Below, piece by piece: positions 44,918 to 58,046 of a stretch of 64,000 nucleotides of DNA. This DNA comes from Methylopila sp. Yamaguchi (GTDB taxonomy: Bacteria > Pseudomonadota > Alphaproteobacteria > Rhizobiales > Methylopilaceae). The notes beneath the pieces are model-generated. The model had not been told where the DNA came from and ran no database searches. It saw only the letters and a list, made by a program, of their open reading frames with translations. Location of the stretch: NCBI RefSeq assembly GCF_002897035.1, contig NZ_BAUX01000004.1, positions 1 through 64,000 on the forward strand. Reading direction: 5' to 3'. The translations under genes and the position numbers were made by a program. How positions within the stretch are numbered: the stretch's first letter is position 1; every line of letters begins with the position of its first letter.

Positions 44918-45592
44918 TCAGGCCATCGACGCGGTCTCGAGCGCCGCGTCGGCGGAGAGCCGCCCCTTCTCCATGTGCAGCACGCGGTCGGCGAGATCGC
45001 CCATGAACTTGACGTTCTGCTCGACGAGCAGGATCGACAGCCCGAGCGATCGACGCAGCCGCAGCAGCGTCTCCACGATCTCGTCGCGGATCGACGGCTG
45101 GATGCCCTCGGTCGGCTCGTCCAGCAGGATCAGCGACGGCCGTCCGCACAGGCAGCGCGCGAGCGCGAGGATCTGCTGCTCGCCGCCCGAGAGCACGCCG
45201 CCGGCGCGGTCGAGGATCGGCGTCAGGCGCGGAAACCGCTCGATCATGTCGTCGACGATCTCGAGCGGCTGACCAGCGGCGCGCGCGGCGTACTCCATGT
45301 TCTCCCGCGCGGTCAGCGCCGGGAAGATCTGCCGCCCCTGGGACACGTAGCCGAGGCCGCGTCGGGCCCGGCGGAACGGCGGCTCACCCGCGACGTCGAC
45401 GCCCTCGAACACGATCGACCCCCGAGTCGCAGGGATCGCGCCGCTCAGCGCCTTGAGCAGCGTGCTCTTGCCCATGCCGTTGTGGCCGAGCACGCCGAGG
45501 ATCTCGCCCTTGTCGACGGTCAAGGCGACGTCGCGAAGGATGCCGATCTGGCCGTAGCCGGCGGCGAGGTCGGAGACCGTGAGCAGGCTCAT
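44918..45592 (-). CDS. ABC transporter ATPase, LivF/UrtE-like (second system)
   Basis: A 224-residue ATPase with Walker A GHNGMGKSTLLKA, signature LSGGEQQILALARC, Walker B LILLDEPTEGIQPS and H-region LLVEQNVKF. The TEGIQPS stretch again links it to the UrtE branch, but the Walker A has Met where Ala is usual. It is the last gene of the amiC-to-ATPase unit and overlaps the previous ATPase by 4 nt. Confidence 0.92.
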   Translation of the reverse strand: MSLLTVSDLAAGYGQIGILRDVALTVDKGEILGVLGHNGMGKSTLLKALSGAIPATRGSIVFEGVDVAGEPPFRRARRGLGYVSQGRQIFPALTARENMEYAARAAGQPLEIVDDMIERFPRLTPILDRAGGVLSGGEQQILALARCLCGRPSLILLDEPTEGIQPSIRDEIVETLLRLRRSLGLSILLVEQNVKFMGDLADRVLHMEKGRLSADAALETASMA

Positions 45593-46311
45593 GCCGCCTC
45601 CTTTCCGAGGTAGACATCCCGCACGCGGGCGTCGGCCAGCACCTCGGCCGCTGGCCCCTGCGCCAGCACGCGGCCCTGGCTAAACACCGTCACGGTGCGG
45701 GCGATGCGGCGGATGAAGGCCATGTCATGCTCCACCACGATCACGGAGCTCGACCGCGCCAGCTCGACGATCAGATCGCCAAGGCGGTCCACCTCGGCGC
45801 CGGTCATGCCCGCCGCCGGCTCGTCGAGCAGGATCAGGTCCGGCTTCTGGGCGATCACCATCGCCAGCTCGACGAGCTGCCGCTGGCCGTGCGCGAGCCT
45901 GCCGACGACGTGGCCGGCGAGGCGGGAGACGCCCATGCGCTCCAGCGCCTCCTCCGCGCGCCGCCTCGACAAGGTCGGCGGCAGCACGGCGTCGGTCGCC
46001 ACGCGGACGCTCGCCATCGCCGTCAGCCCGTCGAACAGGCTCGGCACCTGCGTCTTCACGCCCACGCCCAGCCGGGCGATGCGCGCGGCGGGCAGGCCCG
46101 CGATGCTGCGGCCGCGCAGCCGCACGTCCCCGGCGGTTGGCTTCAACTGGCCGCAGAGCATCTTGAAGAAGGTGCTCTTGCCGGCTCCGTTGGGTCCGAC
46201 GAGGCAGTGCAGTTCGCCTTCGCCGAGCGAGAAATCGACGCCGGCGACGGCCGTCACGCCGCCGAAACGCATGATGAGGCCCTCGGCTTCGAGGAGGGGA
46301 GCGCCGATCAT
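45589..46311 (-). CDS. ABC transporter ATPase, LivG/UrtD-like (second system)
   Basis: A 240-residue ATPase with Walker A GPNGAGKSTFFKM, signature LAHGQRQLVELAM, Walker B LILLDEPAAGMT and H-loop VVEHDMAFI, ending DVYLGKEAA. The VGVKTQVPSLFDGL Q-loop region is of the UrtD type. The ATG at 46311 overlaps the permease stop (ATGA). Confidence 0.92.
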   Translation of the reverse strand: MIGAPLLEAEGLIMRFGGVTAVAGVDFSLGEGELHCLVGPNGAGKSTFFKMLCGQLKPTAGDVRLRGRSIAGLPAARIARLGVGVKTQVPSLFDGLTAMASVRVATDAVLPPTLSRRRAEEALERMGVSRLAGHVVGRLAHGQRQLVELAMVIAQKPDLILLDEPAAGMTGAEVDRLGDLIVELARSSSVIVVEHDMAFIRRIARTVTVFSQGRVLAQGPAAEVLADARVRDVYLGKEAA

Positions 46312-47369
46312 GGCCGTTCCTCCGCCGGGCGCCGAAGCTCCGCCGCGCCGCGCCCGCGCGTCGCGCGAGCCTTGGCGACCAAGCGTCCTCCGAAGGCGAG
46401 CGCCGTCGGCAGAAGGCCCTGACGAAGACCGAGCACGCAGAGCGTCAGGACGACGCCCATGACCAGGTTCGGATCGAGGACGGCGAAACTCGGTCCCGCG
46501 TCGAGCGAGCCGAGCCCGGTCGACAGCGCCATCAGCAGGAAGCATCCGATCACGGGGCCTGCGAAGGTGCCGAGCCCGCCGACGATCACCCAGATGATCA
46601 CCTGCCCGTTGGTCTGGAGGCTGAACATGTTGGGGCTGACGAAGACGCTGTTGGCGAACAGCACCCCCCCAACGCCCGCGATCGCGCCGCCAAGCGTGAA
46701 GATCCCGAGCTTGTAGAGGCGGGTGTCGTAGCCGAGCAGTTCGGCGCGGCCTTCGTTTTCGCGGATCGCGATCACCGCCCGGCCGAAGCGGGTCGCCATC
46801 GCGAGTTTGCAGATGACGTAACAGGCGAACAGCGCGGCGACCGCGAGCATGTAGATCTGCTCCGGCAGGAAGGGCTCGTCGGGATGGCCCGGCGGCGCGA
46901 GGATCGGGGTGGAGGGGATGCCGTTGAAGCCGCCGAGTGGGGCCGCGCCGATCGTCCATTCCTCGCCCGCGGTCTGGTTGATGAAGCGGTAGAGGATCAG
47001 CGAGACGGTGAGGGTGATCACCCCGAGATAGACGTCCGAGATCCGCCCCCAGAACATGAAGTAGCCGAGCAGGGCGGCGAAGCCCGCGGCGGCCGCGACG
47101 GCGATCACGGCCGCAAGCGGCGTGCTTTCGAGGTTCAGCCCGGCGACCGCGTAGACGTAGCCCGCGAGGCCGAAGAACGCCGCCTGCCCGAAGCTAAGAA
47201 TGCCGGCGTAGCCCCAGATGAGCGCGAGCGAGAGCGCCAGGATCGCGTAGCTCGCGTAGATCGAGCCGTTGATCATGGTCGTCAGTTCGCCTCCCGCCGG
47301 AACGGCCACGAGGGCGTAGAGGGCGGCGGCCCCCACGAGCAGCCAGCCAAGAGCGTCGCGAAGGGTCAC
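46308..47369 (-). CDS. ABC transporter permease, LivM-like (second system)
   Basis: A 353-residue permease with about nine membrane helices. It shows LALIWGYAGILSFGQAAFFGLAG near 55-78 and the cytoplasmic EAA-like loop AIRENEGRAELLGYDTRLYK. The GTG start at 47369 overlaps the upstream permease stop by 4 nt. The tail (about 35 residues, Arg-rich) is cytoplasmic. Confidence 0.91.
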   Translation of the reverse strand: MTLRDALGWLLVGAAALYALVAVPAGGELTTMINGSIYASYAILALSLALIWGYAGILSFGQAAFFGLAGYVYAVAGLNLESTPLAAVIAVAAAAGFAALLGYFMFWGRISDVYLGVITLTVSLILYRFINQTAGEEWTIGAAPLGGFNGIPSTPILAPPGHPDEPFLPEQIYMLAVAALFACYVICKLAMATRFGRAVIAIRENEGRAELLGYDTRLYKLGIFTLGGAIAGVGGVLFANSVFVSPNMFSLQTNGQVIIWVIVGGLGTFAGPVIGCFLLMALSTGLGSLDAGPSFAVLDPNLVMGVVLTLCVLGLRQGLLPTALAFGGRLVAKARATRGRGAAELRRPAEERP

Positions 47370-48232
47370 AGCGACCTCCGAAAAAAGCGGCCCGTAATTC
47401 CCTGCGGCAGCACTCGCAGCAGGAGGACGGCGGCCGCGAGCAGCGCGACCTCGCCGAGCACCGGCGTCATGACGAAGGAGAAGGCGGTGTTGACCGATCC
47501 GAGCAGCGCCGAGGCGCTGAGGGCGCCCGTCAGGATCGCGGTCCCGCCCGAGATCACGGTGATGAAGGCCTTGGCGATGTAGACCGCGCCGATGGAAGGG
47601 GCGACGCCCGTGATCGGCGCGATCAGCGCGCCCGCGAGCCCTGAGATGGCGGCCCCCGTCACGAAGGTCGTGGCGTAGACCTTGGCGGGATCGACGCCGA
47701 GCGCCGCCGCCATGTCGCGGTTCTGCATGGCGCCGCGGGCGATCAGCCCCACCGGGGTTCGCCGCAGCACGAACCACCCGCCGAGGAACAGAAGTGAGGT
47801 CACGCCGGCGGTGAGCAGCTCGTAGAGGCCGATAGCGTAGCCGCCGATCGGGACGCTTCCGAGCGGCGGCGAGATGCCGGAGACGCGGTTGCCGAAGATC
47901 ACCGTGACCACGCCGACCAGCGCAAGGCTAACGCCCCAGGTCGCGAGCATGGTGTCGATCATCCGGCCGTAGAGCCGCCGGATGACGAGGCGCTCCAGCA
48001 CGGCGCCGATCAGGCCGACCGTCACCGGCGCCGCCACGAAGATCGCGAGCCAAAGATTGAGGCCCGCCTGATGCGAGACCAGCGCCGCGTAGCCCCCGAG
48101 CATCAGGAACTCGCCGTGGGCCATGTTGATGATCCGCATCATGCCGAAGATCACCGCGAGCCCCGCGCTGATGAGCGCGAGGTTGGCGATGGTCACGACG
48201 AGCTGCAGGATGACGATGAGCGCGTAGTCCAA
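47366..48232 (-). CDS. ABC transporter permease, LivH-like (second system)
   Basis: A 288-residue LivH permease with eight membrane helices. Hallmarks are GMMRIINMAHGEFLMLGGYA near 30-49 and NRDMAAALGVDPAKVYATTF. Unlike UrtB of the first cluster it has no N-terminal periplasmic extension, so it is not a urea-type UrtB and the substrate probably differs. It follows the binding-protein gene after a 206-nt gap that contains a strong repeat hairpin. Confidence 0.91.
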   Translation of the reverse strand: MDYALIVILQLVVTIANLALISAGLAVIFGMMRIINMAHGEFLMLGGYAALVSHQAGLNLWLAIFVAAPVTVGLIGAVLERLVIRRLYGRMIDTMLATWGVSLALVGVVTVIFGNRVSGISPPLGSVPIGGYAIGLYELLTAGVTSLLFLGGWFVLRRTPVGLIARGAMQNRDMAAALGVDPAKVYATTFVTGAAISGLAGALIAPITGVAPSIGAVYIAKAFITVISGGTAILTGALSASALLGSVNTAFSFVMTPVLGEVALLAAAVLLLRVLPQGITGRFFRRSL

Positions 48233-48297
48233 GGGTAGTCTCCAGAAGGCGGCGGAACTTCAACGCAAGCGACAGGGGCGAACCGCGTCAGCCTGAT

Positions 48298-48412
48298 GCG
48301 TGCTTCGAGACGCCTCGCGGTGCGCGAGGCGTCTCAGCATGAGGAGGGGGAGCCTCTCCGCCACCGAAGGCTCCTCATGCAGAGGAGGCCCTAAGAGCCC
48401 TCTCGACACGCG
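48298..48412. repeat. dispersed palindromic repeat, type 1, copy B
   Basis: Begins GCGTGCTTCGAGACGCCTCG. The inverted repeat GAGACGCCTCGCG (48307-48319) pairs with CGCGAGGCGTCTC (48323-48335) over 13 bp with the 3-nt loop GTG. Then come CAGCATGAGGAGG, a second CTCCTCATGC arm, and a degenerate CTCTCGACACGC end. It sits between the ABC binding-protein gene and the permeases and may tune the level of the downstream genes. Confidence 0.7.
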
Positions 48413-48438
48413 CAGCCGCTTCCGCCGCTGGCTTCGTC

Positions 48439-49683
48439 TCAACTCTTCACGTCTATGACGAACTGCTTGGTCTCGTTTGGGTTCGCCGCCAGGTCGCAGA
48501 CGGCGGCGGTGTCGGCCGGCGGCTGTTGCGGGAAGCTTTCCAGCACGTGGTAGGCGCGGTCCCGCACCTCGGCGATGTAGGTGTCCAGCGTGTCGTGGTG
48601 GGTCTTGGGATCGATCGTGGTCTTGCCCGCGGGGCCCGTGAACGACAGGCCGCCCTCCAGCGCCGGGATGATCTTGTCGCGGTCCACGCTGCCGGCCTTG
48701 GCGGCCGCGGCGGCCCAGAGGTTGACCGCGTGGTAGGTCATCGCCGAAGCCTCGGTCACCGCGTCCGCCTTGTCGCCGAAGCGGTCGGTGTACTTCTTCA
48801 GGAAGGCTTCGTTCTCGGGCGTCTTGAGGCCGTCGAAGTAAGCGTAGGACACCACGATGCCGTCGTGCTCGTCGGGCGAAGTCAGGACCTGTTCGTTGCC
48901 GATGCCGAAGGTGGTTGAGGCCATCGGGATCTTGTCCTTCATGCCGGCGGCGACCCATTGACGGTAGAACGAGTTGTGCGCGGCGCCGACGAGCACCGAC
49001 ATGATCATGTCGGGCTTCGCCGCCTGGATCTTGCGGATCGTCGGGCCGAAGTCGTTGACGTCGAGCGGGAAGAAGTCGGCCTGCGCGACCTCGCCGCCGT
49101 TCTCGGAAGCGAACTTGCGGATCCACTTCGTGGTGATTTGGCCGTAGTTGTAGTCCGCCGCCAGCACGTAGATCGTCTTGGCGTTGAAGCGCTTCATCAC
49201 GAAAGGGGTGAACTTCTGGAGCGTCTGCGCGGGGGTCGAGCCCATGCAGAACACGTTGCGGTCGCAGACGCCGCCCTCGTAGAGCATGTTGTAGAAATAA
49301 GGCGTGCGGAACCTGCGGAGCGTCGGGCGCATGGCCTCCCGCGAGGCTGAGATGATCCCGCCGAACACCACCGAGGCCTTCTGCTTCGTGGCCGCCTCGG
49401 TGGCGTACTGCGTGTAGAGCTGCATGTTGGACTGCGGGTCGTAGTTCTTCAGCGCGATCGGGCGGCCCAGCACGCCGCCCGCCGCGTTGATCTCCTCGAC
49501 CGCGAGGGTGAGGCTGTTGATCATCGGCCGGCCGTAGATGTCGATGCCGCCCGAGGCGTCGTGGATGCCGGCCACCTGTATCGGCTCGGCGGCCGAGGCT
49601 TGGCGGAGGTAAGCGGGGGCAAGGCCCAGCGCCGCCCCCGCGGCGGCGGTCTTGAGAAGCGTTCTGCGGCTGAAATCGGTCAT
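48439..49683 (-). CDS. ABC substrate-binding protein, branched-chain/amide type (second system)
   Basis: A 414-residue periplasmic type I binding protein. The N-terminus SRRTLLKTAAAGAALGLAP is a twin-arginine signal with cleavage near ASAAEP. Domain features include AGIHDASGGIDIYGRPM and VDVNDFGPTIRKIQAA, with FGIGNEQVLTSPDEHDGIV near the ligand cleft. It resembles urea/short-chain amide (FmdD-like) binding proteins but is clearly distinct from UrtA of the first cluster. Its ligand is probably the hyuAB substrate or a related amide; this is inferred from context. Confidence 0.92.
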   Translation of the reverse strand: MTDFSRRTLLKTAAAGAALGLAPAYLRQASAAEPIQVAGIHDASGGIDIYGRPMINSLTLAVEEINAAGGVLGRPIALKNYDPQSNMQLYTQYATEAATKQKASVVFGGIISASREAMRPTLRRFRTPYFYNMLYEGGVCDRNVFCMGSTPAQTLQKFTPFVMKRFNAKTIYVLAADYNYGQITTKWIRKFASENGGEVAQADFFPLDVNDFGPTIRKIQAAKPDMIMSVLVGAAHNSFYRQWVAAGMKDKIPMASTTFGIGNEQVLTSPDEHDGIVVSYAYFDGLKTPENEAFLKKYTDRFGDKADAVTEASAMTYHAVNLWAAAAAKAGSVDRDKIIPALEGGLSFTGPAGKTTIDPKTHHDTLDTYIAEVRDRAYHVLESFPQQPPADTAAVCDLAANPNETKQFVIDVKS

Positions 49684-49857: not shown

Positions 49858-51879
49858 TCAGGCCACCTTGAGGGAGACGGTTGCGTCCTGGCCGGGCTGC
49901 ATGCGCTGGCTCCAGTAGGGAGCGGCGCGACGCTTCAGCATGGAGCGGAACTGCTGGGTGGTCTTTTCCAGCAGCTCGCCCGAACCCCAGTTCACGATCA
50001 CCCCATACTGCCGGATGAGGTCGAGCGTGCCGAGCTCGCCCGCCCGGTACTTCGCGGCGATCGCGCCGGCGTCCTCGTCCAGCCATTTGGCGCGGTTGGC
50101 GCGGATGTAGGCGCGCTTGGCGAGCGTGCCCTCGCGGTCGACGACGTATTCGGCGAGGTCGGCGTCGACCTCCTTGACCACGACGCCGTAGTCGATCGCG
50201 GCCCGCTCGATCGAGACGTAGCCGTCCGCTACGTCCTCGCAGACGAGCTGCGGGTCGCGCTCCAGCGGGTCGCCGAGACCGCCGCCGCCGGCCGACGGGC
50301 GGCTGACGAGGTCGCCAGGCGACAGCGGCTCATTCGAGAACATCGAGCCGAGGTAGCGCTCGTTCTCCAGCCCCTCGTTCACCCACACCCCGTGGGGGAT
50401 TGAGGGGAGGCCGCCCCAAAGCCCCCAGGTGATGGAGCGCTCGCGGTCGCAGCAATAGGAGACGACCGTGCGGTCGACCTTGGTGAGGATGACGCCCTTG
50501 TCGACGCCCATGCCGCCGCGGGATTCGCCGGGGCCGCCGCTATCGACGCGGAGTTCGTGGCAGGCGGTGAGCACGGGTGCGAGCCGCTCCTGGCCCTCGA
50601 ACGGCTGGGTGCCGAGCTGCACGCCGAACACCGGGCCGGTCGCCGCCCATCCGTCGCGGCCGTTGCGGGCGCCCCAGCCGCCGACCATCCAGTCGTACCA
50701 CATGAAGTACTTGTGGCCGCCGGAGGCGTCGCGCTTGTCCTGGCCGCCGATCAGCAGGTAGTCGAGGTTGAAGGTGCAGGCCATGGCCCGCTCGGGCATC
50801 ACCTCCGCCCAGAGCTCGAAGATCGAGTTCATGATCTTCTCGAACGGACCCGAGCAGAAGCCCGCCACCGGGGTCGGCCAGGCGGCGTTCACGACCGAGC
50901 CCTCCGGCCCGAGATCCACCGTGACGACCCGGTAGAAACCGGAGTTGAGCGGAATTTCGGGGAACTGCATCTTCGTGCCCGCGACGATCGCGGCGAAGGA
51001 GCCGCCGAAGCAGGCGTTGAGGAAGCAGCGGATGCTGGTCGGGTGCGACTTCGACAGGTCGTAGTGGACGGTGTCGTCCTTGATCGTCATCCGCACGCGG
51101 ATCGGGATTAGGCCTTCGCCGACGCCCGGATCGAGGTCGATGTAGTCCTCGGTCTCCCAGACGCCGTCCGGCAGCGCCGACACCCGCTGGCGGGTCAGCG
51201 TCTCGACGTAGTCCTGCACCGCGCCGAAGGAGGTCTTGATGACGCCGAGGCCGTACTTCTCGATCAGGCGGCAAATCTCCTGTTCGGCGACCTTCGTCGC
51301 CTCGGCCTGTGCCTCCATGTCGCCGATGATGTCGGCTGGCGCTCGGGTGTTGGACGCGATCAGGTTGCAGACGTCGTGCAGGCACTGGCCCTTGCTCCAC
51401 ACCCGGACGGGCGTGATGCGCAGCCCTTCGGCCATGTGGTCGATGGCGTTGACGTTGAACGAGCCCGGCGTCGCCCCGCCGACGTCCGCCCAGTGACCGT
51501 TCGCCTGGGCGAAGCCGAGCAGCTCGCCCTGGTAGAACATCGGCCGCACGATGCGGGTGTCGTTGAAGTGGGTGCCGCCCTGGTAGACGTCGTTCACCAC
51601 GAACACGTCGCCGGGATGGATGTCGCCCTTGAAGGCGTTGATTACGGCCTTCGCGGTGTAGTGCAGCGTGCCGACGTGGGCCGCGATGTCGCCCGAGCCC
51701 TGCATGATCGTGTCGCCATTGGCGTCGCAGAGCGCGGAGGAGAAGTCGCGGGACCAGATCACGAAGGAGTAGCAGGTGCGGAAGATCTGCTCCGCCATCT
51801 GGTCGACGATGTTGACGTAGGCGTTCTTGAGGACCTCGAAGGTGACCGGATCGAGGCCGTGGTCCATGTTAGCGGACAT
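49858..51879 (-). CDS. hyuB: hydantoinase/oxoprolinase-type subunit B
   Basis: A 673-residue HyuB-family protein, partner of HyuA in ATP-dependent opening of hydantoin, 5-oxoproline or related lactam rings. Visible features are FVIWSRDFSSALCDANGD, NDVYQGGTHFNDTRIV near 95-110 with metal-site histidines, NGHWADVGGATPGS, and SAGGGGLGDPLERDP near the C-terminus. It is longer than usual HyuB (about 550) by a C-terminal tail. The start MSANMDHGLDP is 33 nt from the hyuA stop. The exact ring substrate cannot be read from sequence. Confidence 0.92.
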   Translation of the reverse strand: MSANMDHGLDPVTFEVLKNAYVNIVDQMAEQIFRTCYSFVIWSRDFSSALCDANGDTIMQGSGDIAAHVGTLHYTAKAVINAFKGDIHPGDVFVVNDVYQGGTHFNDTRIVRPMFYQGELLGFAQANGHWADVGGATPGSFNVNAIDHMAEGLRITPVRVWSKGQCLHDVCNLIASNTRAPADIIGDMEAQAEATKVAEQEICRLIEKYGLGVIKTSFGAVQDYVETLTRQRVSALPDGVWETEDYIDLDPGVGEGLIPIRVRMTIKDDTVHYDLSKSHPTSIRCFLNACFGGSFAAIVAGTKMQFPEIPLNSGFYRVVTVDLGPEGSVVNAAWPTPVAGFCSGPFEKIMNSIFELWAEVMPERAMACTFNLDYLLIGGQDKRDASGGHKYFMWYDWMVGGWGARNGRDGWAATGPVFGVQLGTQPFEGQERLAPVLTACHELRVDSGGPGESRGGMGVDKGVILTKVDRTVVSYCCDRERSITWGLWGGLPSIPHGVWVNEGLENERYLGSMFSNEPLSPGDLVSRPSAGGGGLGDPLERDPQLVCEDVADGYVSIERAAIDYGVVVKEVDADLAEYVVDREGTLAKRAYIRANRAKWLDEDAGAIAAKYRAGELGTLDLIRQYGVIVNWGSGELLEKTTQQFRSMLKRRAAPYWSQRMQPGQDATVSLKVA

Positions 51880-51912: not shown

Positions 51913-53970
51913 TCAGGCCAGCGGGATGCGCATGACGAGGGTGAGCGAGCGGTCGACTTCCGCCGTGACGCCGGGCGGCACGATCGTCGTGGAGTCGAGC
52001 TGGTCGATGACAGCGGGGCCGGCCACCCTCATCCCGGACTGGAGCGCCGCGCGGTCGTAGACCGGCGCGTCGATCGCTTCCGGCAACTCGTCGAAGCGGA
52101 CGCGACGGGTCCCGACGGGCGCAGCTTCCGCGTCGATGGGGTCGAAGTCGGCGAACTTCGCCTTCGAGGTGACGCCGGTCGCGATCACGCTGACGCGGTA
52201 GATCTCGACGGGCGCGCCGGGGCGCGAATAGTTGTGCTCGCGACCGTGCTCTTCGTGGAAGTAGGCGATCGACTCGTCGAGCGAGACGACAGGCGAGGCG
52301 ATGTTGATCGACAGCGCGCGCCACTGGCCGTGGTAGCGCATGTCGATCTTGCGCTGGAACACCATGTTTTCTGGCGTTACGCCCTCGGTGACGAGGCGCT
52401 CCCGGCCTTCGATCTCCAACTCGCGGAAGGTGGTCTCGAGGTCGGCGACGTTCACCTCCTCGGCCTTGGCGAGATACATCCGCGAGATGTCGTGCTGGAT
52501 GTCCACCAGCAGGCAGCCGAGCGCCGAGGTGACGCCCGGGTTCGGCGGCACCAGCACGACGGGTATCGCCAAGTCCTTGGCGAGCGCCGCGCCGTGGAGA
52601 GGCCCCGCGCCGCCGAAGGCGACCAGCGCGAAGTCGCGTGGGTCGTAGCCGCGGCGGATCGAGAGCAGGCGGACGGCGTCCGCCATGTTGGCGTTCGCGA
52701 CCTTCAGGATCGCGAGAGCGGCCTCTTCGACCGACATGCCGAGCGGCTCGGCGACGCCCTTACGGATAGCCTCTGTCGCGAGACCCTTATCCAGCGCGAC
52801 CTTGCCGCCGGCGAGCCGATCGCTGAGGCGGCCGAGCACGACGTTGGCGTCGCAGTTCGTCGGGTTCTCTCCGCCGCGGCCGTAGCAGGCGGGTCCGGGC
52901 GTGGAGCCGGCCGACTGCGGGCCGTTGCGCAGCGAGTTGGCGGCGTCCATCCAGGCCAGCGACCCGCCGCCCGCGCCGATCGTCAGCACCTCGATCGATG
53001 GGAAGCAGATCGGGTAGCCGTACTCGACGAACCATTCCTTTGTGACGTTGATTTCACCGTCGTCGCACAGCGAGACGTCAGTCGAGGTGCCGCCCATATC
53101 GAGGCCGATCGAGTTCCTGAACCCGGCCTGCTCGGCGACGAAGCGGCTGGCGATCGCGCCCGCCGCGATCCCGGAGGCGGAGAGACGGGCCGCGTAGCGC
53201 TCCGACATCTTCGCGGTCATCACGCCGCCGCCGGAGTGCAGAAGCAGCACGTCCTCCTTGTAGCCGCCGGCCTTCATGCGGCTTTCGAGGCGGCTGGCGT
53301 ACTGGCCGACGACCGGCGCCAACACCGCGTTCGCGACCGTCGTCGAGAAGCGCTCGTGCTCGAAGATCTCCGGCATGATGTCGCTGGAGATCGAGATCGT
53401 GGCCTCGGGCACGGCCTCCGCCAGGATGTCCCGCATGCGCTGCTCGTTCGCGGGATTGATGAAGGCGTTGGCGAAGCAGATCGCGATGGTCTTCACGCCG
53501 CGCTTCTTGATCACGCGGGCGAGCTCGGCGGCCTCCGCCTCGTCGAGCGGCGTGACGACCTGGCCCGAATAGTCGGTGCGCTCGGTCACCACCAGGCGAT
53601 CGCGACGCCGGATGTAGGGCTTCGCCATCTCCTTGTAGGTGTCCCACAAGTCGTCGCGGTTGCCGCGGCGGATCTCGATGGTGTCGCGGAAGCCCTTGGT
53701 GGTGACCATCACGGCCGGCGGAAAGCGGCGCGTGATCAGGGCGTTGGTGGCGAGCGTGGTGCCGTGCTTGAACAGCAGCAGGTCGTTCAGGTTCACGCCG
53801 CCGGCGTCGATGCCGGCCAGCACGCCGTCAATCGGGTCGGGGGTGGTCGGCACCTTCGCCACATGCATCAGGCCGGTGGCCTCGCTCAGCACGCAGATGT
53901 CGGTGAACGTGCCGCCCACGTCGCAGGCGACGCGCACCCGGCGGTCCTCGGCGTCAATGGCTTGAGTCAT
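51913..53970 (-). CDS. hyuA: hydantoinase/oxoprolinase-type subunit A
   Basis: A 685-residue ATPase subunit of a hydantoinase/5-oxoprolinase/caprolactamase-like enzyme. The actin-like fold motifs are VACDVGGTFTDICVL at the N-terminus, HGTTLATNALITRR near 70-83, GLDMGGTSTDVSLCDDG around 290, and FGGAGPLHGAALAKDL. The ATG at 53970 has a strong ribosome-binding site (GAGGAG). It starts 56 nt after a strong intrinsic terminator that lies between amiR and hyuA. This indicates attenuation control by the upstream AmiR-like protein. Confidence 0.93.
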   Translation of the reverse strand: MTQAIDAEDRRVRVACDVGGTFTDICVLSEATGLMHVAKVPTTPDPIDGVLAGIDAGGVNLNDLLLFKHGTTLATNALITRRFPPAVMVTTKGFRDTIEIRRGNRDDLWDTYKEMAKPYIRRRDRLVVTERTDYSGQVVTPLDEAEAAELARVIKKRGVKTIAICFANAFINPANEQRMRDILAEAVPEATISISSDIMPEIFEHERFSTTVANAVLAPVVGQYASRLESRMKAGGYKEDVLLLHSGGGVMTAKMSERYAARLSASGIAAGAIASRFVAEQAGFRNSIGLDMGGTSTDVSLCDDGEINVTKEWFVEYGYPICFPSIEVLTIGAGGGSLAWMDAANSLRNGPQSAGSTPGPACYGRGGENPTNCDANVVLGRLSDRLAGGKVALDKGLATEAIRKGVAEPLGMSVEEAALAILKVANANMADAVRLLSIRRGYDPRDFALVAFGGAGPLHGAALAKDLAIPVVLVPPNPGVTSALGCLLVDIQHDISRMYLAKAEEVNVADLETTFRELEIEGRERLVTEGVTPENMVFQRKIDMRYHGQWRALSINIASPVVSLDESIAYFHEEHGREHNYSRPGAPVEIYRVSVIATGVTSKAKFADFDPIDAEAAPVGTRRVRFDELPEAIDAPVYDRAALQSGMRVAGPAVIDQLDSTTIVPPGVTAEVDRSLTLVMRIPLA

Positions 53971-54026
53971 CTCTGGCTCCTCATGGCGGGCCGCGGGCGC
54001 CGAGCGCTCCGCAGGCCGTGAAAACG

Positions 54027-54062
54027 AAAAAAGCCGCCGCCAGCGGTGATGCTGGCGACGGC
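54027..54062 (-). terminator. leader terminator (attenuator) before hyuA
   Basis: On the minus strand GCCGTCGCCAGC-ATCACC-GCTGGCGGCGGC forms a 12-bp stem with one G-U pair, followed by TTTTTT (54027-54032). It sits between amiR (94 nt upstream) and hyuA (start 56 nt downstream). The motif GCCAAGGGAGC directly precedes and overlaps its 5' arm, so an alternative hairpin (CGGC/GCCG) would disrupt it. Confidence 0.85.
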
Positions 54063-54075
54063 TCCCTTGGCCGGC
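54058..54075 (-). promoter_or_regulatory. candidate antiterminator hairpin, hyuA leader
   Basis: Minus-strand CGGC-CAAGGGA-GCCG; the right arm is inside the terminator's 5' arm, so the two structures exclude each other. The core GCNAAGGGAGC recurs before amiC. The loop contains AAGGGA, compatible with the A1/G4 loop positions of ANTAR target hairpins. A second hairpin of the usual pair was not identified. Confidence 0.5.
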
Positions 54076-54133
54076 GTCCGCTGGCGGCGATCTCTGGCGC
54101 GCGCGGACCTATCTGTGCGTGGCGTTTCAGGTC

Positions 54134-54148
54134 GGCGCGCACCGCGCC
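54134..54148 (-). other. short hairpin after amiR
   Basis: Minus-strand GGCGCG-GTG-CGCGCC, a perfect 6-bp stem with 3-nt loop, 8 nt after the amiR stop, without a T-tract. It may be part of the leader structure of hyuA. Confidence 0.35.
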
Positions 54149-54155
54149 GGACGTG

Positions 54156-54746
54156 TCAGAAACCCACTAATTCCTCAGCGTTGATGATCGTCTCGCAGAC
54201 GATATCCATCGTAATTCGCGCAGTCATTGCGCGAGCGCGTATGGTTTCATACGCTTCCTGCTCTGATAATCCCTTGCGGGACATCAGTATCTGCTTCGCC
54301 TTCTCAAGCTTCCTGAAGCCCTCTAACCGTGCCTCAAGCTTGCGAACTCTGTCAAGAAGGATTTTCTCCTTTAAAGAAATTGTGTGGGCGATGACGATGC
54401 TGGTCAAAAGACCGAAAGCGCGGATAGGCTTCGTCACGATCGCGGCGGCGCCGGCGCGGGCGATCGCCTCGATCACGGCGGGGCTTTCGAACTCCACGAT
54501 CGCGACCAGGGTCACCCGCGCGTCGCGTTCCGCCAGCGCCTTCAGCAGGACGTGCGTGAAGCCGTCTTGCCGGAACAGCATGAACACGATGTCCGCGTCC
54601 GCCGGGATCGCGTCCCGCGGCGGCCACACGGCTTCGACGTTGCAGCCGATCCGGCGGATCTGATCCACCAGTTCGTCGCGTTCGCGATCCTTCGGGTGGT
54701 AGACCACCACGCGGACGTTTCGAAGGTCGCGGAGGGCCTTCAGCAT
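54156..54746 (-). CDS. amiR: AmiR-like ANTAR antiterminator
   Basis: A 196-residue RNA-binding antiterminator. Residues 1-120 form a pseudo-receiver: the fold is present but the phospho-acceptor region reads IVFMLFRQDG with no proper Asp switch, as in AmiR. A coiled-coil (LLDRVRKLEARLEGFRKLE) leads to the ANTAR domain (KAKQILMSRKGLSEQEAYE and IRARAMTARITMDIVCET). AmiR is held inactive by AmiC and freed by amide binding. It follows amiC with a 5-nt gap. Its ANTAR coding part is visibly AT-richer than surrounding sequence. Confidence 0.9.
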   Translation of the reverse strand: MLKALRDLRNVRVVVYHPKDRERDELVDQIRRIGCNVEAVWPPRDAIPADADIVFMLFRQDGFTHVLLKALAERDARVTLVAIVEFESPAVIEAIARAGAAAIVTKPIRAFGLLTSIVIAHTISLKEKILLDRVRKLEARLEGFRKLEKAKQILMSRKGLSEQEAYETIRARAMTARITMDIVCETIINAEELVGF

Positions 54747-54751
54747 GCCGG

Positions 54752-55921
54752 TCAGCCCCCGGCCGCGCGGGCGGTGACGAGGTTCGGCGCGGGGTCCCAG
54801 TCCGCCAGGCTGTGGTGGATCAGGTAAGGGTCGGGCTTGATCGCCTGCGAGCTCTGCTCGAGCACCTTGAACTGGCCGTCGGCCTCGACGCGACCGATCC
54901 GCGGCCAGAGGTAGGAATGGCCGTTCTCGGCGTCGATCCGGATTTCCCCCTGGGGCGCCGCAAAGCTGGTCTCGCCAAGCGCCGAGCGAATGTCCCGGGG
55001 GTCGACGGACCGGGCGCGTCCGACGGCGTCGAGCGTCATGCGGGTCACGCTGTAGGCGGTCTCCGCCATAGCGTTGAGGCGCTCGTGTACGCCGAAGCGG
55101 GACTGGTAGGCGCGCACGAAGCGTCGGTTTTCGGGGCTGTCGATAGACTGGAAGTAGGTCGCCCCCGTGAGATGCCCGACGGCGAGACCGGCCGGCATCG
55201 ACGCGATCTCGGCCTCGGTGACGGTCAGGCTCGCGATCGTCAGGCTGTCGGTCAGCCCGGCTTCGGCGCACAGCTCGTAGAAGCGCACGGCGGCTTCGCC
55301 GACGACCGTGCAGAACACGACGTCGGGCCTCTTCTTCTTGATGTCCTGGACGATCTGGTCGAGTTCCCGGCGGGAGGCGTCGAGCGGCACGTAGCGCTCG
55401 GCCAGCGTCTGCCCCTTCTGCTCCGCGACCAGGGTCATCATCACCCGGTTGGATTCGACCGGGAAGGTGTAGCGGGTGCCGACGAGGTAGAAGCTCTTGC
55501 CGGCGTTGAGGATCAGGTGCCGCGCCAGCAGCAGGATGTGCTGGTTCGGCACCGCCCCGCCGTAGATCACGTTCGGCGAGTATTCGAAGCCCTCGTAGGG
55601 CGCGGCGTAGGCCAGCACCGCCGCGCGCCGCTCGACGATCGGCACCACCGCCTGACGCGTGTTGGTCATGTAGCAGCCCACGAGCAGGCCGGCGCCGTCC
55701 TCGTCCAGCATCCGCTCTGCGAGGCTCGCGAACCGGGCCGGGTCGGACTGGGCGTCGTAGGTCACAGGAACGACCTCCCGGCCCGCCACGCCGCCGGCGG
55801 CGTTGATCTCCTCGAGCGCGAGCAGCGTCGCGTTGAGCTGGGTGCGCTCGAGATAGGCCGTCGGGCCGGTCGCCGAGTACAGCGCCCCGACGATCAACGG
55901 CTTGGTGGTGTCGAACGCCAT
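54752..55921 (-). CDS. amiC: AmiC-like cytosolic amide-sensing binding protein
   Basis: A 389-residue periplasmic-binding-protein fold with no signal peptide (starts MAFDTTKPLIVGALYS), so it stays in the cytosol as a sensor. Close to AmiC and UrtA: GCYMTNTRQAVVPIVERRAA near 85-104, GGAVPNQHILLLARHLI and GTRYTFPVESNRV. It is expected to bind and silence the ANTAR protein encoded next, releasing it when a small amide or lactam is bound. The ATG at 55921 lies 20 nt after the T-tract of a strong terminator. An ATG 21 nt upstream would lie in the T-tract flank and is unlikely. Confidence 0.9.
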   Translation of the reverse strand: MAFDTTKPLIVGALYSATGPTAYLERTQLNATLLALEEINAAGGVAGREVVPVTYDAQSDPARFASLAERMLDEDGAGLLVGCYMTNTRQAVVPIVERRAAVLAYAAPYEGFEYSPNVIYGGAVPNQHILLLARHLILNAGKSFYLVGTRYTFPVESNRVMMTLVAEQKGQTLAERYVPLDASRRELDQIVQDIKKKRPDVVFCTVVGEAAVRFYELCAEAGLTDSLTIASLTVTEAEIASMPAGLAVGHLTGATYFQSIDSPENRRFVRAYQSRFGVHERLNAMAETAYSVTRMTLDAVGRARSVDPRDIRSALGETSFAAPQGEIRIDAENGHSYLWPRIGRVEADGQFKVLEQSSQAIKPDPYLIHHSLADWDPAPNLVTARAAGG

Positions 55922-55940
55922 GCTCTTCCGCCTCAAGCAC

Positions 55941-55986
55941 AAAAAAAGGGAGCTCCCGCCGGGCAGAACCGGCGGGAGCTCCCTTT
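55941..55986 (-). terminator. leader terminator (attenuator) before amiC
   Basis: An 18-bp perfect stem: minus-strand AAAGGGAGCTCCCGCCGG, loop TTCTGC, CCGGCGGGAGCTCCCTTT, followed by a T-run ending at 55941. The amiC start is only 20 nt beyond the T-run, too close for a promoter in between. GGAGC-AAAGGGA-GCTCC just upstream overlaps its 5' arm. It may also end the upstream GGDEF-EAL gene. Confidence 0.85.
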
Positions 55987-55994
55987 GCTCCTGA
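55980..55994 (-). promoter_or_regulatory. candidate antiterminator hairpin, amiC leader
   Basis: Minus-strand GGAGC-AAAGGGA-GCTCC, a 5-bp stem whose right arm is inside the terminator's 5' arm. It shares GCNAAGGGAGC with the hyuA leader, which supports a common recognition element. Confidence 0.5.
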
Positions 55995-55999
55995 TCCGA

Positions 56000-56027
56000 C
56001 GCTAGGCGCCCCGCCGCACGCCGTCAA
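56000..56027 (-). promoter_or_regulatory. possible promoter for the amiC operon
   Basis: On the minus strand TTGACG (56022-56027) and CTAGCG (56000-56005) are 16 nt apart. The -35 is good, the -10 mediocre. Transcription would begin near 55993, just before the candidate antiterminator, so nearly the whole leader is the hairpin pair. Confidence 0.4.
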
Positions 56028-56057
56028 CGCCAAAGTTGGCGGGAGCGGCGCGCCCCG

Positions 56058-58046
56058 TCAGCGGCGCGGCGCCGGACGGCCGGGGAGGGCTCTCGCATGC
56101 GTGCGCGCCCACCGCAGAGCTTCGTTGCGTGGCATGGGGCGGGCGATGAGGTAGCCCTGGAACGCCTTGCAGCCCAGGTCCCGCATCGTCTCGAGATCGT
56201 CCTGATGCTCGATGCCTTCGGCCACGACCTCGAAGCCCAGCGGCCCCGCGAGGCTGAGGATCGCCAGCACCAGGCTGCGGTTCTCGGCGGACCGGGAGAC
56301 GCCCTCGACGAAGATGCGGTCGATCTTCACCCGGTCCACCCGTAGCCGCCGAAGCGCCCCGAGCGAGGAGTAACCCACGCCGAAGTCGTCGATCGCCACG
56401 CTGACGCCGGCCTCCGACAGGGCGGCGAGCTTGCCGCGCACCGCCTGGATGTCGAGGGCGGTCTCCTCCGTAATCTCGATCTCGAGCATGGCCGGCGGAA
56501 CGCCGCGCGCCTTCAGGCCCTTCAGCACGAGCTCGTCCACGGCGATCTGCGACATCTCCCGGGGCGAGACGTTCATGGCGACGCGAGCGTCCGCGAGGCC
56601 GATCTCACGCATGGCGAGAATGGTGACGCAGACGTCGCTCAGGATGAAGCGCAGGAGTTGCTCGCCGAAGCCCGCAAGCGAAGCCGAAGCGATCAGGTCC
56701 GGAGGCGAGATCCAGCCGTGGCGCGGGTGGCGCCAGCGGGCGAGCGCTTCGAAGCCTCCGAAGCGCGCGCCCCCGTCGATCATGACCGGCTGATACCAAA
56801 CTTCGAGACCACCCTCGGCCAGAGCCTTTCCTAGGTCTCGCTCGATGTCCCGGCGCATCGCGAGATGGTGCGCAAGCTCCGCGTCGAACACGTAGCACCG
56901 GTTCCGGCCAGCGAGCTTCGCCGCGTAGAGCGCGGCGTCCGCCGAGATCAGCATCTCGTCGATCGCCGGCGCCGTCGACACATGAACGCCGATGCTGACG
57001 CCGATGCGGCCCGCGTCGAAGGCCGCGAAGGGGATCGCGATGGCGGCGATCAGCTCGTGCGCGAGGAGCGTCGGATTGACGTCGACGAGGCCCATCTCGA
57101 ACAGCACGGCGAACTCGTCGCCGCCGAGGCGCGCCACGGCGAAGGAACTGGGAAGCGACAATTGCAGGCGGCGGGCGACCTCGATCAGCACGTTGTCGCC
57201 TGCCTTGTGGCCGTAGGTGTCGTTGACCGCCTTGAAGCCGTCGAGATCGAGCAGCAGCAGGCTCATCGGCGATTGCGCGATCGCCGCCCGGCGTTCCGCC
57301 TCCTCGAGGAAGCCGCTGCGGTTGAGCAGGCCCGTCAGCGCGTCGCGGGAGGCGCGGCGGGTCATCTCCTCGGCGATCTCGGTCGCCGCCACGTGCGCGC
57401 CTTCGAGCGACGTCGCAAGAGAGGTCGCTTCGTTCTTCAGCCGGCTGGTCTCCCGCATGAGACCTTCGCCCTCCCGGCAGGCCCTTATGAGGGCGGCGAG
57501 ATAGAGCACGACCGTCGCGCCCAAACATATGCGGTCGAAGCCGCCCGCGTAGAACAGGCAACCCGCCGCCGACAGAAGCGGCGGCGTGATGAAGCCGATC
57601 GGGATGCGCGCATAGGCGAAGCCGTGCGTGACGGCGCCTGCGGTGATCCCGCACACGACGATGAGGTAGAATAGGGTCTGCGGCGAGGTGTAGCCGGCGC
57701 AAAGCGTGGGGATGAAAGCCCACACCAAGCCGGACGACAGCGCGGCCGCGGAGTGCAATTTAAGACGTCGATCGACGACGGCCGGGTTTGTCGTCTCCGC
57801 CAGTCGGCAGAGCATCATGCGGAAGCTGTTGGGGACGCAGGACGCGGCGAACCAGATCAGCCCGGCCTTGGTCTGGCCGGAGTTCCAGGCGACCAAAGCG
57901 GAGGTGATCCCCAACACGACGTTGACGGGGATCGACAGAAGCACGCTGCGCCGTACGGCGGCGAGCTGGTCGGACCGGATCAAGTGGGGGAGGGTGGTCG
58001 CGGCGCCCTTCGCACCGAGCGATAAAGGTCGTCCCGCACCGACCAT
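56058..58046 (-). CDS. membrane GGDEF-EAL cyclic di-GMP enzyme
   Basis: A 662-residue protein with an N-terminal membrane region of about five or six helices (about 30-200), a GGDEF domain with intact RLGGDEFAVLFEM, and an EAL domain. EAL signature residues are all visible: GFEALARWRHP, NVSPREM, LEIEITEE, IDDFGVGYSSL, VAEGIEHQ and QGYLIARPM, so the phosphodiesterase should be active. The GGDEF lacks an RxxD inhibition site. The start at 58046 (MVGAGRPLS) has a good GAGGA; an ATG at 58094 would add 16 residues. It is upstream of amiC on the same strand. Confidence 0.92.
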   Translation of the reverse strand: MVGAGRPLSLGAKGAATTLPHLIRSDQLAAVRRSVLLSIPVNVVLGITSALVAWNSGQTKAGLIWFAASCVPNSFRMMLCRLAETTNPAVVDRRLKLHSAAALSSGLVWAFIPTLCAGYTSPQTLFYLIVVCGITAGAVTHGFAYARIPIGFITPPLLSAAGCLFYAGGFDRICLGATVVLYLAALIRACREGEGLMRETSRLKNEATSLATSLEGAHVAATEIAEEMTRRASRDALTGLLNRSGFLEEAERRAAIAQSPMSLLLLDLDGFKAVNDTYGHKAGDNVLIEVARRLQLSLPSSFAVARLGGDEFAVLFEMGLVDVNPTLLAHELIAAIAIPFAAFDAGRIGVSIGVHVSTAPAIDEMLISADAALYAAKLAGRNRCYVFDAELAHHLAMRRDIERDLGKALAEGGLEVWYQPVMIDGGARFGGFEALARWRHPRHGWISPPDLIASASLAGFGEQLLRFILSDVCVTILAMREIGLADARVAMNVSPREMSQIAVDELVLKGLKARGVPPAMLEIEITEETALDIQAVRGKLAALSEAGVSVAIDDFGVGYSSLGALRRLRVDRVKIDRIFVEGVSRSAENRSLVLAILSLAGPLGFEVVAEGIEHQDDLETMRDLGCKAFQGYLIARPMPRNEALRWARTHARALPGRPAPRR

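Follow-up and report, generated by a model that had tools for sequence, protein, structure and literature searches.

In the 64,000-nucleotide stretch of Methylopila sp. Yamaguchi DNA analysed here (the window), antitermination of the AmiC/AmiR type controls, with a probability that we put at roughly 80%, a hydantoinase/caprolactamase-like operon together with its ABC transporter. In this methylotroph-type bacterium, an RNA-binding sensor pair appears to govern the cyclic-amide-type utilisation operon by overriding two stop signals, one in the leader of amiC and one in the leader of hyuA (Table 1). One leader seems to manage with one hairpin, compared with two in known examples. The sequence-only reading of the window had proposed a strong intrinsic terminator in each leader, a small hairpin that overlaps each terminator in a mutually exclusive fold, and an AmiR-like ANTAR protein encoded between the leaders. 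All of these were found, and the anatomy, conservation, covariation and promoter-like placement of the leaders were determined.

Table 1. Features of the amiC-amiR-hyuA locus and the genes downstream of it
Feature	Position	Strand	Basis or remark
Predicted amiC promoter TTGACG-N17-TAGCGT	55999..56027	-	sequence prediction
amiC leader hairpin P2 GGAGC[AAAGGGA]GCTCC	55975..55991	-	predicted 5' end of RNA
amiC leader intrinsic terminator	55945..55986	-	18-pair stem; U run 55947-55941
amiC, AmiC-type ligand sensor (Peripla_BP_5/6)	54752..55921	-	Pfam; PDB 1pea
amiR, AmiR_N + ANTAR antiterminator	54156..54746	-	Pfam; PDB 1qo0 AmiR, 6wsh EutV
hyuA leader hairpin P1	54076..54108	-	RNAalifold on 8 leaders, pair counts, mismatch-tolerant scan
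hyuA leader hairpin P2 CGGC[CAAGGGA]GCCG	54059..54073	-	GGC/GCC core and G4 in 8/8 loci
hyuA leader intrinsic terminator	54032..54063	-	U run to 54027
hyuA, hydantoinase/oxoprolinase A family	51913..53970	-	Pfam
hyuB, hydantoinase B family	49858..51879	-	Pfam; downstream of hyuA in 8/8 loci
ABC transporter genes, urea/branched-chain type	44918..49683	-	NCBIfam relatives, all below cut-offs
ABC transporter binding protein	49683-48439	-	Pfam
ABC transporter permease	48232-47366	-	NCBIfam relatives below cut-off
ABC transporter ATPase	45592-44918	-	NCBIfam relatives below cut-off

The AmiR protein carries an AmiR_N pseudo-receiver and a C-terminal ANTAR domain (PF21332, 1.8e-37; PF03861, 2.3e-13). 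It matches the AmiR of PDB 1qo0 at 5e-28 and is also related to EutV (6wsh), while AmiC matches the AmiC of PDB 1pea with an E value of 5.4e-88; no signal peptide was seen in AmiC on inspection by eye. The NCBIfam entries closest to hyuA and hyuB are the caprolactamase CapA and CapB, respectively, each with a score below its cut-off. Judging by strand and spacing, the ABC transporter genes are probably the remainder of the controlled operon.

Eight orthologous amiC-amiR-hyuA loci were compared. This set is small and includes three near-identical loci; a ninth locus, L058, was left out of the counts as it comes from the same genome as L062. The search for more orthologues gave one in 111 genomes in the genus of the L059 genome and one in three in that of the L119 genome; both were already in the set, which therefore remains eight. 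P2 is retained in both leaders of all eight loci (8/8 amiC and 8/8 hyuA), as the proposed conservation check required, and 16 of the 16 hairpins carry the loop G4. The 11-mer of the sequence-only reading, shared by the two window leaders, is common to both leaders in just two of the seven other loci (L061 and L062). The feature kept in all loci is the hairpin with G4, not the 11-mer. An 18-mer extending the shared motif, GCNAAGGGAGCYNYCGCC, is matched exactly at only two places in the 4,421,505 bases of the genome, namely in these leaders; allowing up to two mismatches gives 39 matches, and the reversed control gives 60.

The frequency of such hairpins was assessed at 95 control terminators, which came from the window and a further 400 kb of this genome and did not include those of amiC and hyuA. 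A hairpin of at least 4 bp with a 6- or 7-nt loop lies over the left arm in 35 of them (14 with G4, two with both A1 and G4), and one of at least 5 bp in 15 (four with G4, none with both). A small hairpin overlapping a terminator is thus weak evidence by itself. What goes beyond chance is the pair of matches of the 18-mer together with the persistence of the hairpin in eight loci with compensatory changes. The shuffle controls were modest: on four measures, 5 to 23 of 500 shuffles attained the observed value, and for the number of pair types 465 and 444 of 500 did so. It should be noted that the loop Gs of P2 also pair in the terminator, and therefore their conservation has two possible causes. 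P2 folds at -5.3 to -8.8 kcal/mol, far weaker than the terminator folds at -31.6 to -40.0 kcal/mol (7/8).

The amiC leader terminator has the longest stem among the ten terminator-like sites at 45-64 kb, and the leader folds at -40.0 kcal/mol. Its P2 shares nucleotides with the terminator and excludes it in all eight loci. The P2 stem is 5-6 bp long throughout (-6.9 kcal/mol in the window); seven of the P2 hairpins were found by script and the one in L063 by alignment, because the terminator loop there was too long for the script. The covariation proposed as a check was observed: all 35 cells of the stem are paired and two of the five pairs show double changes. The same stem slid along the alignment was 31-54% paired, a control biased toward a structure derived from the same sequences. 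The loops carry G4 in 8/8 loci and A1 in 6/8, and for L119 the energy model gives a 5-nt loop.

In all eight loci TTGAC starts 36-38 nt upstream of amiC P2, and a TAGCNT-like -10 (TAACCT in L063, GAGCTT in L059) follows 17 nt after it, or 18 in L063. This promoter-like TTGAC-N17/18-TAGCNT is predicted to set the start of the amiC RNA at P2 in every locus. The sequence-only reading had overlooked this predicted promoter, which would make the amiC leader single-hairpin, as well as the P1 hairpin of hyuA.

A mismatch-tolerant scan of the 100 nt upstream of amiC P2 found no P1 in six of the eight loci; L064 gave a single match that lies across the -35 at a distance of 43 nt, and L059 a single match at 94 nt. 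At its hyuA-like position P1 occurs in none of the eight amiC leaders, whereas the same scan found it in all eight hyuA leaders. This tolerant scan is the fair test for the absence of P1 at amiC. That scanning for such hairpins works is shown by the loci with sibling AmiR proteins, where standard A1/G4 dual hairpins are present. The earlier remark that the usual partner hairpin was not found stands for amiC and is corrected for hyuA.

The P1 of hyuA has an outer stem GTCCGC/GCGGAC and an inner hairpin GCGCC[AGAGATC]GCCGC (54100-54084) with one C.C mismatch, whose loop (54095-54089) carries A1 and G4. A simple hairpin scan missed it because of the C.Y mismatch. P1 and P2 together form the RNAalifold consensus of the eight leaders when the right arm of the terminator is excluded. 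The outer stem of P1 covaries as well (double changes in 3/6 pairs), and the inner hairpin lies 27-31 nt ahead of P2 in all eight leaders; the tolerant scan gave G4 in 8/8 and A1 plus G4 in 7/8. P2 again has nucleotides in common with the terminator, and the two folds exclude each other. Its core GGC/GCC is invariant and is therefore uninformative on covariation either way. Over both hairpins, G4 is present in 16 of 16 loops and A1 in seven (7/8 in P1 and 0/8 in P2, where C or T is found). The loops are 6 or 7 nt in the chosen register and often smaller in energy folds: the energy model closes P2 to a 5-nt loop with bases 1 and 7 paired in five of the six leaders folded, and several P1 loops also shrink. 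The "7-nt loop with G4" is therefore our register. Taken singly, the hyuA leaders show no unusual stability (z of -0.19 in the window and -2.66 at best). On its sequence, the hyuA leader is a dual-hairpin ANTAR architecture with relaxed loops. No suitably spaced TTGAC that could give hyuA its own promoter was seen by eye ahead of P1, so that this leader probably forms part of the amiC transcript. Taken together, these results support the reading of the locus as an ANTAR antitermination switch.

The proposed mechanism borrows its AmiC-AmiR step from the P. aeruginosa system. When the ligand is absent, AmiR would be held by AmiC and the terminators would form in both leaders. Once AmiC senses its ligand, for which a small amide, a lactam or a ureide is the probable candidate, AmiR would be released and active. 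We infer that the ANTAR domains of AmiR would then contact the hairpin loops via G4 and stabilise P2, so that terminator formation would be prevented in each leader and transcription would read through into the operon. At hyuA this would involve the classical arrangement of P1 and P2, and at amiC only P2 with its 5-6 bp stem at the extreme 5' end of the RNA. Through the amiC switch, AmiR would control its own synthesis.

Eleven RNA-contact residues of EutV, taken from an extract of PMC8934654, were mapped by us onto AmiR via the PDB alignment. The equivalents of K149, E160, Y164, R168, M172 and R175 are retained in 8/8 AmiR orthologues and that of K147 in 6/8; R142, N173 and R177 are retained in none, and K143 only as K or R. 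According to the same extract, EutV Y164 stacks on G4.

We tentatively read the amiC leader as a natural single-hairpin ANTAR antiterminator, in which the RNA begins at P2 and a longer P2 stem replaces the recruitment hairpin; the odds of this fall a little short of even. The main competitor holds that AmiR targets the hyuA leader only, and that the 5' hairpin and the terminator of the amiC leader, with no ANTAR protein bound, keep the expression of amiC-amiR low and constitutive. This would suit the lack of P1 at its expected place in all eight amiC leaders, the basal expression that any regulator needs, and the requirement of EutV for P1 in antitermination in vivo (extract of PMC3369931). 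However, the 5' arm of amiC P2 lies outside both promoter and terminator and yet covaries with the 3' arm, its G4 loop is retained in all loci down to 62% AmiR identity, and a nearly identical loop is present in hyuA P2 of this genome. We consider the hyuA-only alternative unlikely, though still a serious one.

The genome encodes five ANTAR genes, and the loop consensus deviates from the classical A1, so that the leaders might respond to another ANTAR protein or be a ligand-binding RNA. We regard this as improbable. A model of the hyuA leader (R1) gave matches of E 1e-12 or better only in five of 13 genus genomes, namely those with this amiR; the many weak further matches in these 13 genomes reached E 0.0035 at best and none was convincing. 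As R1 was built from these loci, this is co-occurrence and not an independent test. Moreover, no Rfam family reached its gathering score over 53800-56300; the best matches, ctRNA_pGA1 (28.5 bits) and microRNA families, were taken for long-hairpin artefacts. In favour of the AmiC/AmiR circuit itself, all six genomes with a hyuA of 84-100% identity have this amiR adjoining. Among 12 distant hyuA relatives (58-69%), ten have no terminator in the 400 nt upstream, and none has a terminator overlapped by P2 there. A tblastn search with AmiR against plasmids gave 218 records, all below 60% identity, and therefore no orthologue on plasmids. The last alternative is that the terminator in the amiC leader simply belongs to the 3' end of the upstream GGDEF-EAL gene, which has the same orientation and whose end, at 56058, is 72 nt away. 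This has very little probability and is already contradicted: the gene lies ahead of amiC in only three of the eight loci, as seen in the 1.4-1.9 kb upstream of amiC that were covered in the seven other loci, while the terminator is present in all eight, and the conserved promoter-like sequence lies between the gene and the terminator.

If the AmiC/AmiR circuit proposed here is correct, AmiR control extends to a hydantoinase/caprolactamase-like operon. According to an extract of Walshe et al. 2022 (PMC8934654), one hexaloop is the minimal ANTAR binding motif, co-transcriptional antitermination still requires two hairpins, and the role of single hexaloops was left open. For that question, the conserved one-hairpin and two-hairpin leaders of this locus, which probably answer to the same AmiR, would form a natural matched pair. 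The invariant G4 and relaxed position 1 fit the structure described in that extract, where contacts are made to G4 but not to A1. A truly single-hairpin amiC leader would contradict the EutV-derived rule of two hairpins for co-transcriptional antitermination, and would suggest a two-tier circuit, in which AmiR acts loosely on its own genes and tightly, through the dual hairpin, on the catabolic genes behind them. A search among CC-licensed papers turned up neither this locus nor any natural antitermination leader that lacks P1.

Like the AmiC/AmiR system of P. aeruginosa (PDB 1pea, 1qo0), the locus combines an AmiC-type sensor with an AmiR carrying an ANTAR domain, serves a nitrogen-compound operon and, like the amiE leader (extract of PMC3369931), has an attenuator with an overlapping terminator. 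It differs from the amidase system in its hydantoinase/caprolactamase-like target and in the presence of two leaders within the locus, of which the amiC leader is without P1. In addition, the regulator genes here have their own attenuator, which those of the amidase operon are not known to have.

With the dual-hexaloop leaders of EutV/EutW (extracts of PMC3369931 and PMC8934654) the hyuA leader shares P1 and P2, G4, the exclusion of the terminator by P2 and, in the window, a spacing of 10 nt between the inner P1 stem and P2, compared with 5-12 nt in eut leaders. Unlike in the EutV/EutW system, AmiR_N replaces the phospho-receiver, the hyuA P1 is extended by an outer stem and its inner stem contains a C.Y mismatch, the loops are 6 or 7 nt with C or T for A1 in hyuA P2, and amiC lacks P1.

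A screen of 216 terminators in 75 non-orthologous loci gave 13 with an A1/G4 P2, of which seven were retained; in most of the 75 loci no such leader was seen in the stretches examined. Six candidates (L069, the second L081 site, L085, two in L179 and L196) were dropped by eye as likely chance. They scored 14-16.5 and had poor U runs or were distant from gene starts, and L085 and L196 were without P1. With L120 added by eye, the sibling AmiR leaders were those of L067, L072, L081, L082, L185, L186, L136 and L120. As in the orthologous loci, their P2 overlaps the terminator. A P1 hexaloop is present in every one of the eight leaders. In six, a hairpin begins 8-11 nt past the -10, and P1 fills there the slot of amiC P2.

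Finally, the amiC leader resembles the single-hexaloop sites in the extract of Walshe et al. (PMC8934654), namely the extra hexaloop of EutX, a sequestering RNA, and some Mycobacterium tuberculosis stem-loops, in offering one G4 loop as a possible ANTAR target. The M. tuberculosis stem-loops lie at ribosome binding sites or in 5' UTRs, whereas the amiC hairpin overlaps a terminator.

The strong minus-strand terminator and the overlapping AAGGGA hairpin that the sequence-only reading had described in the leaders of amiC and hyuA were both seen in the sequence. The positions of these elements, including the small terminator-overlapping hairpin (P2), are listed below together with the genes of the locus.

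Features of the amiC-amiR-hyuA locus and its leaders in the window
Feature	Position	Strand	Remark
GGDEF-EAL gene	58094-56058	minus	
amiC leader P2, GGAGC[AAAGGGA]GCTCC	55991-55975	minus	overlaps 5' base of terminator
amiC leader terminator	55986-55945	minus	18 pairs
amiC	55921-54752	minus	AmiC-type
amiR	54746-54156	minus	AmiR-type ANTAR
hyuA leader P2, CGGC[CAAGGGA]GCCG	54073-54059	minus	overlaps 5' base of terminator
hyuA leader terminator	54063-54032	minus	13-nt arms
hyuA	53970-51913	minus	
hyuB	51879-49858	minus	
ABC transporter, urea/branched-chain type		minus	

The motif GCNAAGGGAGCYNYCGCC matches the whole genome exactly at two places, both in these leaders, and tolerance of up to two mismatches raises the count to 39, versus 60 for a reversed control pattern. 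Taken alone, overlap of a terminator by a small hairpin is not rare: such a hairpin (loop of 6-7 nt, at least 4 bp) was present at 35 of 95 control terminators, with G at loop position 4 from the 5' side (G4) at 14 and with both G4 and A at position 1 (A1) at two.

The structural-database relatives of the window proteins include P. aeruginosa AmiC (PDB 1pea, 5.4e-88) for AmiC, and AmiR (1qo0, 5e-28) and EutV (6wsh, 2.8e-9) for AmiR. The NCBIfam models nearest to HyuA and HyuB are the caprolactamase subunits CapA and CapB, with scores below the cut-offs. The genome encodes five ANTAR-domain proteins, at least two of which adjoin ANTAR-type leaders.

Orthologous amiC-amiR-hyuA loci were found in seven further genomes, giving eight loci with AmiR proteins 62-98% identical. 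They are sporadic: the window's genus has them in 5 of 13 genomes, and L059's genus in 1 of 111. Genome G007, which carries the contig of locus L058, also belongs to the window's genus, and the AmiR of that locus is 97% identical. The amiC P2 stems read GGAGC/GCTCC, GGAGC/GCTCT, AGAGC/GCTCT or GGAAGC/GCTTCC, and the loops AAAGGGA, AAGGGA, GAAGGG, AAAGAG, AATGGG or CAAGGGG. Examined for conservation and covariation, as had been proposed, this stem pairs throughout (standard pairs in 35/35 cells of seven distinct rows) and covaries, with double changes at two of five pairs; pairing falls to 31-54% once the partner arm is slid. The shuffle control was modest (19/500 for pairing and covariation, 444/500 for pair-type count). 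As the 5' arm lies outside both promoter and terminator, its covariation supports P2 itself.

In all eight loci TTGAC starts 36-38 nt upstream of amiC P2, and a TAGCNT-like -10 ends 7-9 nt before it, a placement that predicts an RNA start about 0-3 nt from P2. A mismatch-tolerant scan of the 100 nt upstream found no A1/G4 hairpin in six of the eight loci; the other two gave hairpins 43 nt upstream, over the -35 (L064), and 94 nt upstream (L059). The amiC leader lacks the upstream partner hairpin (P1) of ANTAR dual-hairpin leaders. The P2 stem has 5-6 bp in amiC leaders, 3-5 bp in hyuA leaders and 3-5 bp in seven script-found sibling leaders (those of paralogous AmiR systems); that a stronger amiC P2 compensates for the absent P1 is suggested rather than shown. 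The possibility that the amiC terminator is the 3' end of the GGDEF-EAL gene was ruled out because, in the stretch compared, that gene precedes amiC in only three of eight loci.

P1 was present in all eight compared sibling leaders, a set chosen from 13 listed sites after dropping six as likely chance (two of these without P1) and adding L120 by eye. In L067, L072, L081, L082, L185 and L186 (three similar pairs), the -10 is followed after 8-11 nt by P1, which lies 8-12 nt from P2. In L136 P1 follows the -10 by 14 nt and precedes P2 by 54 nt; in L120, which has no promoter assigned, an atypical pentaloop P2 comes 9 nt after P1. Since P1 is promoter-proximal in the siblings, the amiC P2 occupies their P1 slot. 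L136 stands beside another ANTAR gene of the window's genome (contig C1), with P1 GGGC[AAAGAT]GCCC and P2 GGC[AGCGAC]GCC; its spacer far exceeds the usual linker and contains a GGCGCGG/CCGCGCC hairpin.

The absence of a partner hairpin, noted in the sequence-only reading for both leaders, holds for amiC and fails for hyuA. RNAalifold, applied to the eight hyuA leaders with the terminator right arm excluded, gave a consensus of two hairpins, P1 and P2 (GGC/GCC). P1 comprises an outer stem, an inner GCG, a C.Y mismatch, a C-G pair and a loop ANNGNT with an optional C; the loop begins with G in L059. The outer stem varies in sequence between lineages and keeps its pairing, with double changes in three of six pairs; in L119 it pairs fully only in a one-shifted register, assigned by eye and counted as breaks. 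On one alignment (A3), 91.8% of cells pair versus 28-56% in slid controls, which are biased toward a structure derived from the same sequences. Shuffles matched the observed pairing in 5/500, the covariation score in 14/500, the double-change pairs in 23/500 and the number of pair types in 465/500. Six singly folded leaders were not exceptionally stable (z -0.19, the window, to -2.66). The mismatch-tolerant scan placed the inner P1 27-31 nt upstream of P2 in 8/8 leaders, with G4 in all and A1 plus G4 in seven. Directly 5' of P1 lies a short A/T-rich element, GCACAGATAG (54118-54109, minus), represented elsewhere by CACATAA, CATATC, ACATATC, ACATTC and ACATATTT; no TTGAC stands at a suitable distance from it in the eight leaders.

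Across 13 genomes of the genus, strong matches to the hyuA leader RNA model came from the five with amiR and from no others; the loci of those five are among the model's sources. Among 12 hyuA homologs of 58-69% identity, two had a terminator-like site within 400 nt upstream, and none had a P2-overlapped terminator there. One of the two, L205 (G048), has a more distant amiC-amiR-hyuA arrangement (hyuA 68%, amiR 31%), where an A1/G4 hexaloop hairpin, CGTCGC[AAAGAT]GCGATG, followed directly by TTTTTG, lies about 241 nt upstream of hyuA, soon after promoter-like sequence.

G4 occurs in 24/24 loops (eight loci, three of them near-identical, by three hairpins), and A1 in 7/8 P1, 6/8 amiC P2 and 0/8 hyuA P2 loops. 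In the structure of EutV with RNA (PMC8934654), Tyr164 forms a stack with G4, and A1 makes no specific contact. By our own mapping from the PDB-match alignment, equivalents of Tyr164, Met172, Glu160, Lys149, Arg168 and Arg175 are retained in 8/8 AmiR orthologues, and Lys147 in 6/8; Lys143 corresponds to K or R, and no orthologue keeps Arg142, Asn173 or Arg177. The P2 loop Gs, and not those of P1, are also paired within the terminator. It should be added that the energy model often pairs across loops, which shortens several P1 and hyuA P2 loops, as well as the L119 amiC P2 loop, to 4-5 nt.

AmiC likely controls the release of AmiR; the released protein would probably bind the hairpin loops via G4 and, in stabilising P2, would likely allow read-through of both terminators. 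P2 folds at -5.3 to -8.8 kcal/mol versus -31.6 to -40.0 for the terminators (seven of eight leaders folded), so that protein binding or co-transcriptional kinetics must shift the balance. On present evidence the amiC leader would act like an ANTAR antiterminator and, as it lacks P1, is classed as a variant rather than a standard member. The sequence comparison places the hyuA leader as a putative ANTAR dual-hairpin member with loop position 1 relaxed. Its inner P1 stem lies 10 nt from P2 in the window; in eut leaders this gap is 5-12 nt (PMC3369931).
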